A stretch of DNA of 64,000 nt from Verrucomicrobiota bacterium (GTDB taxonomy: Bacteria; Verrucomicrobiota; Verrucomicrobiia; Verrucomicrobiales; DEV007). The notes under the pieces are model-generated. The model had not been told where the DNA came from and made no database searches. It saw only the letters and a program-made list of their open reading frames with translations. A program made the position numbers and the translations under genes. Positions 33,894-36,653 of this stretch are shown piece by piece (positions within the stretch are counted from its first letter, which is position 1; each line of letters starts with the position of its first letter). The stretch is taken from assembly GCA_020630975.1 (NCBI GenBank), contig JAHDID010000003.1, forward strand, positions 76,474 to 140,473, in the 5' to 3' direction.

Positions 33894-34018
33894 GGTGACA
33901 TCTACTGCGTCTTGCAGTGCGTAATGGTTCGTTGGGAAAGAGGCTTGCGTCTACTTGGAAATGCCGCGAACTTTGCCCGAACAGTGTTCAATTTCATCAG
34001 ATATTTTCATCAACCGAT

Positions 34019-34678: not shown

Positions 34679-34715
34679 CCCAATATAAGCTGAGACATAG
34701 GAATGTATATATAAA

Positions 34716-34803
34716 CGGAAGCGGTAGGAATCGAACCTACGCTACTGGGCAATAGTAGGCCATGGGTTAGCAACCCAGCACATTACCACTCTGTCACGCT
34801 TCC
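34716..34803 (-). tRNA. tRNA-Ser (anticodon GCT)
   Basis: 88 nt class II tRNA on the minus strand. Acceptor GGAAGCG/CGCTTCC with discriminator G, anticodon stem CTGGG/CCCAT-type with loop TTGCTAA, long variable arm, T-arm GTAGG-TTCGATT-CCTAC. CCA is not encoded. Reads AGC/AGT. It lies 4 bp after tRNA-Ser(TGA) and behind the Ser-leader attenuator. Confidence 0.95.
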
Positions 34804-34807
34804 AGAG

Positions 34808-34893
34808 AGGAAGGTAGAGGAATCGAACCCCTAGCCGTTTCTCAGGTCTAGCCTGGTTTTCAAGACCAGTTTGCCACCTTGGCGCTACCTTCC
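34808..34893 (-). tRNA. tRNA-Ser (anticodon TGA), slightly aberrant
   Basis: 86 nt on the minus strand. Acceptor GGAAGGT/ACCTTCC, anticodon stem CTGGT/ACCAG with loop CTTGAAA, T-arm AGGGG-TTCGATT-CCTCT. Odd points: the D-loop is very short, the variable arm pairs poorly, and the base after the acceptor stem is T where serine tRNAs have G. It reads UCN codons if functional. Confidence 0.8.
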
Positions 34894-34905
34894 AGAATTG
34901 CGGAC

Positions 34906-34939
34906 ACAAAAAAGCCGAGACGAATTAACGGCTCGGCTT
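34906..34939 (-). terminator. Attenuator terminator before tRNA-Ser genes
   Basis: On the minus strand AAGCCGAG (34939-34932) pairs with CTCGGCTT (34919-34912) around a 12-base loop and is followed directly by a run of six T. It lies between the Ser-rich leader peptide and the two tRNA-Ser genes, so it would cut off their expression unless opened. Confidence 0.9.
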
Positions 34940-34986
34940 CGATATGTTATTTCAGTATACAACAAATCGGACCTAGCCGGTGCTAG
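34934..34986 (-). promoter_or_regulatory. Protector and antiterminator pairings of the Ser attenuator
   Basis: Segment 1, CTAGC (34986-34982, within the last serine codons), pairs with segment 2, GCTAG (34977-34973). Segment 2 extended as CGGCT (34979-34975) alternatively pairs with segment 3, AGCCG (34938-34934), the terminator left arm. CGAT/ATCG (34969-34966 with 34943-34940) and TGTTG/TAACA (34964-34960 with 34949-34945) extend that antiterminator. 1:2, 2:3 and 3:4 are mutually exclusive as in trp/his attenuators. Confidence 0.75.
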
Positions 34987-35023
34987 ATGACGAACTGCTG
35001 GAACTGGAGATGATGTTGATCAT
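34973..35023 (-). CDS. Serine-rich leader peptide (16 aa) of tRNA-Ser genes
   Basis: Minus-strand ATG at 35023 gives MINIISSSSSSSSSTG and stop. The nine serine codons in order are TCC AGT TCC AGC AGT TCG TCA TCT AGC, so all six serine codons occur. It precedes a terminator hairpin and two tRNA-Ser genes. The stop codon lies in the RNA segment that can form the antiterminator. There is no good Shine-Dalgarno; if the promoter below is right the message would be nearly leaderless. The role is inferred: a ribosome short of charged tRNA-Ser stalls here and lets transcription into the tRNA genes. Confidence 0.85.
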   Translation of the reverse strand: MINIISSSSSSSSSTG

Positions 35024-35029
35024 GTGTTT

Positions 35030-35057
35030 AGATTACTCTTGATGACGGTATCGTCAA
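35030..35057 (-). promoter_or_regulatory. Candidate sigma-70 promoter for leader peptide and tRNA-Ser
   Basis: TTGACG (35057-35052), 16-bp spacer, TAATCT (35035-35030) on the minus strand. Transcription would begin at or next to the leader ATG. The -10 is weak; read-through from ribBA is an alternative source of the transcript. Confidence 0.4.
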
Positions 35058-35083: not shown

Positions 35084-36307
35084 TTACAGTCGATGCCCCA
35101 TCTTATCTTTCTTAGTCTGTAGGTAGTCTTCGTTATGCACGTTGGGTTGTGCCTGTATCGCCACTTGCTCGACGATCTCTAGTTCATGCCCTTCTAGTCC
35201 CACGACCTTTCGTGGGTTGTTGGTCATTAGGCGGATTTTTCTGACGCCGACATCGTGGAGGATTTGAGCACCCATACCATAGTCGCGGAGGTCTGGGGCG
35301 AAGCCGAGTTTCTCATTGGCCTCTACGGTATCCAGACCTTCCTCCTGGAGTTTGTAGGCGTGCATTTTGTTTACTAGGCCGATGCCGCGCCCTTCCTGGC
35401 GCATGTAGACGAGTACACCCTTTCCGGCTTGGTCGATCTGGGCGAGTGCTGTGTGTAGCTGGGTGCCGCAGTCGCAGCGGCGCGAGCCAAAGACATCGCC
35501 AGTCAGGCATTCGCTGTGTACGCGTACTAGGGTGGGTTCGTCGGCGCGGATGTTGCCACGCACCATCGCGATGTGGTGCTCGGATGGATCGAGCGTGCTG
35601 ATGTAAGTGTAGAGATTAAATTTGCCGAAATCGGTAGGCATCTCGACTACCTCCACTCGCTCGACTAGCTTCTCGCGGCTGCGGCGATATTCGATCAGCG
35701 CTTCGATGCTGCCGATTTTGAGATCGTGTTTTTCGGCAAAGGCGATTAGCTCGGGTAGTCGTGCCATCGTGCCGTCTTCATTGAGGATCTCACAGATCAC
35801 GCCGGCCGGCTCCAGCCCGGCCATTCGCGCCAGATCGACAGCTGCCTCGGTATGGCCTGCTCGGCGTAGCACGCCGCCCTCGCGTGAGCGTAGCGGTAGG
35901 ATGTGGCCGGGCCGCACCAGATCCTGTGGCTCGGCGAGTGGGTTGGCCAGTATCGCTACTGTCTTGGCGCGGTCTGCAGCGCTGATGCCTGTAGTGATGC
36001 CCTGAGCGGCATCCACTGCCACGGTGAAATTCGTGCCGTGCGATTCGGTATTTCGCTGAGCCATCGGAGGTAGGCCGAGGCGATTGCAGGCGGCCGGCTC
36101 GATAGGGGTACAGATCAGTCCGCGGCCATGAGTGGCCATGAAATTGATCGTCTCCGCCGTGATACACTGTGCGGCACAGATCAGATCGCCTTCATTTTCG
36201 CGATCTTCATCATCCACGATCACCACCATCTTGCCGTGACGGATATCCTCGAGGATATCGTCTACCGTGCTGAACTTATCTTGATAGTTATCAATCAAAC
36301 CACTCAT
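35084..36307 (-). CDS. ribBA: Bifunctional 3,4-dihydroxy-2-butanone-4-phosphate synthase / GTP cyclohydrolase II
   Basis: 407 residues from ATG 36307 ([15 protein letters not shown]). RibB half: [49 protein letters not shown]-type sequence. RibA half from about 205: zinc site [31 protein letters not shown] and [12 protein letters not shown]. It makes the two precursors of riboflavin. Its start overlaps the upstream cupin gene by 17 bp, so they form one transcript. Confidence 0.96.
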
Positions 36308-36653
36308 CTTCTGGATCAAATTTTGGGATAGGGACGTTTAAAATCTTTAAGTCAGCGCCGACCGCTCGGTGGCGGCAGCCTGGTTGGATCAGTATCGACG
36401 TGCCGGGAGAAAGAGGATACGACTGGCCATCCAGCTCGATATGCCCATTTCCTTCTAGGACGTAGTAGACCTCAGTCATCTTACGATGGTAGTGAGTTTC
36501 GCTATCTGCCTTTATCTCGACGAGATGCATCGAGGCCACTTCATTTTGCTCGTTCATGAAAGCGCGCCGCGTCGTGCCGCAGGGGCAGTTGACGGGCTCG
36601 ATCTGACTGAAGTCCGCTATCTGGAAGTTTTTCTCGATGATTTCGGCACCCAT
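36291..36653 (-). CDS. Small cupin-domain protein
   Basis: 120 residues from ATG 36653. Single cupin barrel: [24 protein letters not shown] and [12 protein letters not shown] hold the metal ligands. The substrate is unknown. It overlaps ribBA and is translated before it; whether it has a flavin-related role is open. Confidence 0.8.

Follow-up and report, generated by a model that had tools for sequence, protein, structure and literature searches.

Attenuators that work through a leader peptide are known from amino-acid biosynthesis operons, i.e., trp, his, pheA and ilv, and also from pheST. T-box riboswitches bring about antitermination in answer to uncharged tRNA as well; they bind the tRNA directly and do so without a leader peptide.

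Two other described systems are close with respect to the genes concerned. The trn operon of Anabaena, as described in the available part of the paper, comprises 26 tRNA genes, is controlled by the protein repressor TrcR and is induced under translational stress (PMC10272220). Like the locus described here, it adds tRNA genes to a housekeeping set; it differs in its use of a protein repressor, and its description, as far as available, contains none of the terms leader, attenuat and terminator (PMC10272220). In phages that counter host defences, extra tRNAs replace depleted host tRNAs, according to the portions available of two papers (PMC11555353, PMC10264068). These phage tRNAs are expressed from a strong promoter, as stated in the accessible part of one of them (PMC11555353); neither paper, in the parts available, mentions attenuat or leader (PMC11555353, PMC10264068).

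The locus is encoded on the minus strand of the window, i.e., the whole stretch of 64,000 nt that was analysed. It resembles the trp, his, pheA, ilv and pheST attenuators in having a leader ORF with regulatory codons, stems 1:2, 2:3 and 3:4 and a terminator before the controlled genes, and in the placement of the stop codon, where a ribosome finishing translation covers segment 2. Unlike these attenuators, the locus would control tRNA-Ser genes and no enzymes, and the amino acid sensed would be serine. We consider it likely that it is a ribosome-mediated attenuator acting on a spare, probably phage-derived pair of tRNA-Ser genes and that it is one of a wider class, encountered here mainly in phage contigs, in which leaders match the tRNAs. 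The first-pass annotation, made from the sequence alone, had proposed this attenuator and had stated that it knew of no described case in which tRNA genes for the same amino acid are controlled. None was found in the open-access literature either; most subscription journals were outside the scope of that search. A T-box riboswitch or another untranslated, tRNA-binding leader would also respond to uncharged tRNA by antitermination. However, no T-box is among the four Rfam matches with E up to 1 between positions 34000 and 36000, and the locus has a leader peptide, which such an element would leave unexplained. This possibility can practically be dismissed.

A serine leader before two tRNA-Ser genes

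The leader ORF, MINIISSSSSSSSSTG, followed by the stop codon TAG, occupies positions 34973..35023 (minus strand). Its 16 codons and stop read ATG ATC AAC ATC ATC TCC AGT TCC AGC AGT TCG TCA TCT AGC ACC GGC TAG. Thus, codons 6-14 (34982..35008) are nine consecutive Ser codons, which include all six kinds, exactly as had been claimed from the first inspection. An intrinsic terminator with six U (segments 3:4, 34908..34940, -16.1 kcal/mol) follows, and then tRNA-Ser(TGA) at 34807..34893, of a short-D-arm 8/4 type with T73 and similar to phage tRNA-Ser, and tRNA-Ser(GCT) at 34715..34804, with G73. ARAGORN and the sequence agree on this arrangement, which the annotation had also described. The three competing stems it had postulated are present. 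A hairpin spanning the Ser codons and the stop codon (segments 1:2, 34953..35008) and the antiterminator hairpin (segments 2:3, 34929..34979) both have a predicted energy of -19.8 kcal/mol. The CTAGC/GCTAG pairing named as the first stem does exist as a core; the 1:2 stem is longer. Another terminator in the same genome (L002 1501-1538; G000 C109:27296-27333) is 87% identical to that of the Ser leader over 38 bases.

A candidate promoter, inferred from the sequence, lies at 35030..35057 (minus strand), with TTGACG (35057-35052) and TAATCT (35035-35030) separated by 16 nt. It matches the sigma-70 consensus at only 8 of 12 positions and, therefore, is not in the list of the promoter scan. The pattern TTGnnn-N16..19-TAnnnT is found within 80 nt of 10 of the 47 tRNA genes in the genome; in 200 shuffles, the mean was 3.2 and the maximum 8. 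Since the -10 element is only 6 nt away from the ATG, the leader mRNA may be leaderless. No Shine-Dalgarno sequence before the leader ORF is evident by reading of the sequence; this and the weakness of the promoter count against the attenuator.

The upstream ORF, read as ribBA (35084-36319, minus strand), ends ~150 nt before the terminator. The terminator could, therefore, merely end the ribBA transcript, in which case the Ser ORF would have arisen by chance and the tRNA genes would be served by a promoter of their own. Terminators 5' of a tRNA gene without a cognate leader do exist, e.g., before tRNA-Ala(GGC); of 141 genomes of the order, 9 have this arrangement, and these belong to one genus. 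However, only 14 nt separate the end of the U-tract from tRNA-Ser(TGA), which leaves no room for a promoter, and the promoter scan listed none on the minus strand in this interval. Thus, the tRNA transcript should have to cross the terminator. An intrinsic terminator within 120 nt is found at only 2 of the 47 tRNA genes of the genome, and the Ser run and the stems exceed what chance provides, as detailed below. Termination of ribBA alone is, hence, a very improbable explanation.

The run of nine Ser codons and the stems are not due to chance. In 185,495 bases of the genome, 4,549 ORFs with a length of 6-40 codons were counted, and of these the Ser leader is the sole distinct ORF with a run of a single residue longer than 5, the longest run in any remaining ORF being 5. 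This count covered the window and loci L013-L052, some of which overlap each other or the window. The leader folds with -44.1 kcal/mol (z = -5.8), a value that was equalled by none of 200 shuffles. When the nine Ser codons were permuted, none of 5000 orders reached the energy of the 1:2 stem; 3 of 5000 random strings of Ser codons did so. The energy of the 2:3 stem was reached by 30 of 5000 shuffles of the linker. No cognate run of at least four residues was found within 500 nt upstream of the other tRNA genes in the genome; weak cases are the Arg residues at L034 and the Ser residues at L044 (5 of 10 residues each). Thus, the locus has a cluster of regulatory codons, an intrinsic terminator before the controlled genes and mutually exclusive stems beyond chance, as expected of an attenuator.

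In the proposed mechanism, RNA polymerase would start just 5' of the leader with a ribosome trailing behind. As long as translation of the Ser codons proceeds at its normal rate, the ribosome would reach the stop codon and cover segment 2, and the terminator would end transcription before the tRNA genes. When charged tRNA-Ser is scarce, the ribosome would wait on the nine Ser codons and cover segment 1, which may allow segment 2 to capture segment 3 before segment 4 exists, and the tRNAs would be transcribed. Since the anticodons TGA and GCT should jointly decode most or all Ser codons by established decoding rules, the product would relieve its own inducing signal, which would create a feedback loop on the capacity to decode serine.

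The position of the ribosome was considered in a co-transcriptional model, in which the footprint was assumed to extend 15 nt past the first base of the P site and the RNA to end just before the 3' arm of the terminator. In this model, the 2:3 stem is dominant with codons 5-12 in the A site and partial at codon 13, the Ser codons being 6-14. It is absent with codons 2-4 or codon 14 to the stop in the A site, and also without a ribosome. When the terminator is defined as in the survey of many loci discussed below, the permissive A-site codons are 3-12. At full equilibrium, the terminator prevails for all positions of the ribosome; hence, the switch must be kinetic. Thus, the earlier claim that stalling on the Ser codons favors read-through is borne out in the model only, for a stall at approximately codons 5-13 and with an assumed footprint. 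The sensor, the switch and the target are present in a workable register, and the principle is found again in tRNA operons of phages, which supports the attenuator as originally proposed. The function of the switch rests on computation, without data on expression, charging or regulation; the promoter, translation of the leader, read-through, the inducing stress and the origin from a phage are all inferred.

Origin and purpose of the two tRNAs

The genome (7.1 Mb in 158 contigs) encodes ordinary tRNA-Ser elsewhere, with anticodons TGA (L035), GGA (L042), CGA (L049) and GCT (L044). The pair at the locus is, therefore, an extra set beside a complete ordinary one. As the extra pair is of the phage type and the ordinary set is full, it probably serves as a reserve or substitute for the ordinary tRNAs and not for the economy of serine in general.

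Among the tRNA-Ser with which the tRNA-Ser(TGA) of the locus aligns are those of Pseudoalteromonas phage XG4 and Acinetobacter phage Aci05. In an alignment of five rows, the family has an 8-bp acceptor stem, a 4-bp T-stem, a short D-arm and a long variable arm; two-sided changes occur in 12 of 24 pairs, with the structure drawn from these same rows. With 12 distinct rows aligned by fitting to the model, two-sided changes are found in 18 of 24 pairs; the eighth acceptor pair is A-U in 10 and G-C in 2 of these rows, and pairs in the variable arm covary. Family members score 61-106 bits with the covariance model R1, against 40.7 bits for the best outsider in the comparison sample. The tRNA-Ser(TGA) of the window has a D-stem of 4 bp with a 3-nt loop. 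Its match to tRNA-Sec (39.2 bits) stays below the Rfam gathering threshold of 47, and the anticodon is TGA and not TCA; a selenocysteine tRNA was, therefore, rejected. With allo-tRNAs it shares the 12-bp acceptor branch divided as 8/4 and the long variable arm; in contrast to them, going by the part of the source available, its D-stem is short, position 73 is T and the anticodon is a genuine Ser anticodon, and it occurs in phage tRNA arrays (PMC7609411). Since it lacks the long Sec-like D-stem and G73, it is called only allo-tRNA-like.

A strict pattern matched six IMG/VR contigs, all six of which contain tRNA genes. A tandem of Ser(TGA) and Ser(GCT) was found by ARAGORN in 6 of 80 viral contigs among the matches listed, vs. 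a single one of the 387 genomes analysed from the phylum. Given the phage-like tRNA-Ser(TGA) and the higher frequency of the tandem in viral contigs than in the phylum, an origin from a phage is probable, and we infer that the locus is probably a domesticated operon of phage origin.

The same arrangement was also sought in related Verrucomicrobiota, as the first-pass annotation had suggested, and this expectation failed: no homologous locus was found in the relatives searched. Consequently, no covariation is available within the Ser leader itself. BLAST in 56 relatives returned only the locus itself and short, unrelated matches in contig C109 of the same genome and in G028. Nine of 141 relatives matched a strict tandem pattern, but eight of these loci, i.e., all but the own one, lack the Ser pair, and a search of 387 genomes from the phylum for the tandem of tRNAs recovered the own locus only. 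R1 detected only the own tRNA and those of G417 and G429 in 386 genomes of the order. A second model, R2, gave 34 matches at E<=1e-8 in 387 genomes of the phylum, and only the same three exceeded 60 bits; the others (44-56 bits) are, by reading, largely ordinary tRNA-Ser. In G417 (L219) and G429 (L218), the tRNA is the compact Ser(TGA) type of the window, by reading preceded by a GCT tRNA in each case, and neither has a Ser run upstream of it. At L218, the compact tRNA sits within a larger tRNA array.

Other routes to homologues were equally negative. In a ribBA synteny search, 53 of 56 genomes had a match, and of 30 loci examined, the 29 from relatives have no adjoining tRNA-Ser. A Ser-rich leader is absent before the one serS gene above the family cut-off. 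The single match from a wider contig scan lies inside an ORF read as sucC of Pontibacillus, without a tRNA, and was discarded. A pattern consisting of a U-tract and a tRNA yielded, in 141 genomes of the order, only the tRNA-Ala(GGC) mentioned above (L501-L509; nine genomes, genus g9). In these, a GC-rich hairpin and a U-tract lie directly before the tRNA gene, and no cognate leader was seen, which sets them apart from the Ser leader; by reading, the terminator apparently lies just 3' of a promoter-like TTGTCA.

That no relative searched has kept the locus would be compatible with a decaying remnant, in which the phage-derived tRNAs are no longer charged and the leader still folds but has no function. 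The presence of T73 in place of the usual G73 indeed makes charging of tRNA-Ser(TGA) uncertain, and tRNA-Ser(GCT) has, by reading, a mismatched pair in the anticodon stem. However, the ORF and all stems are intact with nearly equal energies, tRNA-Ser(TGA) scores 106.5 bits with its own family model, and T73 is common to its closest phage relatives. A remnant is, therefore, unlikely.

If the locus is a working attenuator, its trigger may be a loss of functional tRNA-Ser, e.g., through anticodon nucleases or tRNA-cleaving phage defence, and not serine starvation, with the same switch then supplying replacement tRNAs. The extra tRNA-Ser set is structurally different from the ordinary one, the recurrence of such switches is in phages, and phage tRNAs have been reported, in the parts of the sources available, to counter tRNA-depleting defences (PMC11555353, PMC10264068). 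Arguably, making tRNA is a better remedy for loss of tRNA than for lack of serine. However, the anticodon loops, CTTGAAA and TTGCTAA, are by reading identical to those of ordinary tRNA-Ser, and evasion of an anticodon nuclease is, hence, not obvious; nor can the sequence alone tell loss of tRNA-Ser from serine starvation. Considering the remedy argument and the phage precedents, loss of tRNA-Ser is about as likely a trigger as starvation, and we give it a little short of an even chance.

Leaders matching mixed tRNA operons in viral contigs

First samples of IMG/VR contigs comprised at least 254 loci with at least 1512 tRNAs in at least 483 clusters. The best cognate matches in these samples were mostly a leader and a terminator just 5' of the tRNAs. 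The leader ...SSLSSLYLLSLLS... stands before tRNAs for Ser, Ser, Tyr, Leu, Leu and Leu (L351), MKNNNTYYLSLSWLSLVDDRG before Leu, Leu, Ser, Tyr and Trp (L328), and MRTINTFKHFSKKSFWFSP... before Lys, Phe, His, Trp, Arg, Ser and Ser in L350 and four near-identical loci. Similarly, MKFTSLPTLPLSSSYPLEVFAQG precedes Pro, Tyr, Leu, Leu and Ser (L343), and MKNIIVHMSSSSSHVSV... precedes Ser, Val and His, with a further Ser tRNA seen by eye (L301). The two operons of L149 each have their own leader: MKKCYLQSLSLLPSPLDCGGAGC belongs to Pro, Leu, Leu, Ser, Ser and Cys, and MKKIFIQWQNFTNTFEMYSRSLLF to Glu, Thr, Asn, Trp, Phe, Met and Gln. One of the viral leaders is (LS)6, before Leu and Ser tRNAs. At L213 and L269, the peptides match the tRNAs and hairpins are present but the U-tract is absent. 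At L213 (10368-9810, minus strand), the leader MTNNHTLSLSSYRLSLSS precedes Ser(TGA) and Ser(GCT), with Tyr and Leu tRNAs seen by eye; its strong hairpins without a U-tract suggest that the output is perhaps different.

A second sample, independent of serine, consisted of 113 + 11 contigs in which a U-tract immediately precedes a tRNA, and contained 123 loci with 990 tRNAs in 374 clusters, 57 of which have a terminator. Here, MKTTLSLSLSLSLSLSGWTNRAM precedes Leu, Ser, Ser, Ser, Leu and Leu (L494), MRTFANIFDFAFEFAAEADK... precedes Phe, Glu, Asp, Pro and Ala (L392), MKMLLLFSYCLWSSK... precedes Phe, Tyr, Trp, Cys and Leu (L466), MTNEKSESFKMYESYSIESK... precedes Ile, Phe, Glu and Ser (L431), and MIKVACTHIPTTTPW... 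precedes Thr and Pro (L417).

The match between leaders and tRNAs was assessed by permutation of the amino-acid sets, with candidate ORFs picked identically for observed and permuted data; p-values of single leaders were maximised over segments and were used only against permutations. In the first samples, a terminator within 110 nt was found for 19 of 327 deduplicated clusters among the matches listed. For these 19, which include single-tRNA clusters, the values of log10 best p added up to -62.5 vs. -29.8 (sd 5.0) for permuted sets, with none of 2000 permutations as good. Over all 327 clusters, 9 reached p<=1e-4 vs. 0-7 in 12 reshuffles, a small excess, and 5 reached p<=1e-6 vs. 0-1, a clear excess. 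Adding the window to the 19 and 57 phage clusters gives 77 entries whose terminator lies within 110 nt, from which 38 phage clusters with at least two tRNAs, at most eight amino acids and a candidate ORF were kept; single-tRNA clusters were thus excluded. The sum for these 38 multi-tRNA clusters from both samples was -121.5 vs. -54.3 (sd 6.4), which none of 2000 permutations reached, and 10 had p<=1e-4 vs. a permuted mean of 1.4 and maximum of 6. The 25 usable clusters of the second sample alone were also matched by none of 2000 permutations. The clusters are not all independent, since L380/L382/L411/L440, L336/L283 and L448/L479 are related. A match between leader and tRNAs is absent in some clusters, e.g., L306, L393, L462, L336 and L283, and a cognate leader is absent before many single-tRNA clusters preceded by a terminator, e.g., those for tRNA-Thr.

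The pairing that would constitute the switch recurs in these loci as well. In 39 loci, i.e., the 38 phage clusters and the window, pairing of the stop region with the 5' arm of the terminator amounted to -424.7 vs. -285.5 (sd 16.6) for swapped partners, which was reached in none of 1000 trials; pairing at single loci, e.g., L350, L431 and L494, was no better than in swaps by this short-segment measure. At 36 of the 39, predicted blocking of the terminator arm declines when the ribosome comes close to the stop codon. Cognate codons in those 36 loci make up 298 of 818 codons inside the permissive stretch vs. 44 of 280 outside, and in the 18 strongest loci 182 of 335 vs. 31 of 127.

Among proteins encoded at eight such loci, 8 of 10 matched PHROGs families, which include portal, terminase and tail fibre. 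BLAST of the L149, L350 and L301 regions against named phages identified no host or named phage; the matches listed cover small parts of the queries, mostly annotated tRNA genes or unannotated stretches. Searches with the leader peptides of L411 and L336 and with 4 kb of L336 found no match.

In contrast to classical attenuators, the leaders of the phage operons mix residues of several tRNAs. Leaders composed to match mixed tRNA operons were not found in the open-access literature searched. Hence, leader-peptide attenuators of tRNA operons are apparently an undescribed class, the class of mechanism itself being known. Some leaders contain nearly all amino acids: all 20 occur in 32 residues at L299 (P = 1.8e-4) and in 37 at L308 (1.2e-3). 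The same statistic gave 0.009 for L448, 0.022 for L336, 0.047 for the second array of the window's own genome and 0.2 for L411, a mixed result for cases that were chosen after being seen and with start codons written as M. Possibly, the leaders of L299, L308, L448 and L336 are general-purpose sensors of tRNA shortage.

A broader hypothesis would be that phage and domesticated bacterial tRNA operons sense the shortage of their own tRNAs through ribosomes that stall on leaders spelling their own, or nearly all 20, residues, and that phages in this way notice host defences that deplete tRNAs by the consequences for translation and respond with precisely the tRNAs that are lacking. The window would then be a serine-only chromosomal copy, and the second array, L050, maybe an all-amino-acid version. 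We regard this hypothesis as evenly poised between right and wrong. If leader peptides do control tRNA genes, the old question why phages have tRNA genes and when they use them becomes directly testable, and the codons of a leader name the tRNA shortages that each phage expects. The supply of tRNA would then also be governed by a simple feedback circuit, and its sequence signature would serve to locate tRNA operons of the inducible kind in phages that have not been cultured.

A second tRNA array in the same genome

L050 (G000 C79:159500-167000) has an array with 15 Rfam tRNA matches (5770-1225, minus strand). Located 5' of it are a sequence, TTGACT-TATAGT, that is promoter-like by reading, an ORF of 60 codons with all 20 amino acids (7091-6909, minus strand) and a terminator. 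This is no more than a lead to a second, all-amino-acid leader before a tRNA array. All 20 amino acids in 60 codons are not rare (P 0.03-0.05), and only one weak match was found in 190 genomes, without any further homologue. Pairing between the stop region and the terminator arm beats 38 of 38 swaps and, in the model, holds for stalls up to approximately codon 51; it is weaker at codon 54, and little of it is left at codons 56-58. However, it covers only part of the terminator arm and also forms without a ribosome, other pairs cover the arm at codons 56-57, and some pairing returns near the stop. Furthermore, the first tRNA detected with Rfam is located ~1.1 kb downstream. By reading, the tRNAs of the array are interspersed with FHA-like ORFs, and a segment at ~3850-3660 (minus strand) between them seems to resemble a conserved segment of 23S rRNA (TAACTATAACGACCCTAAGGTAG).
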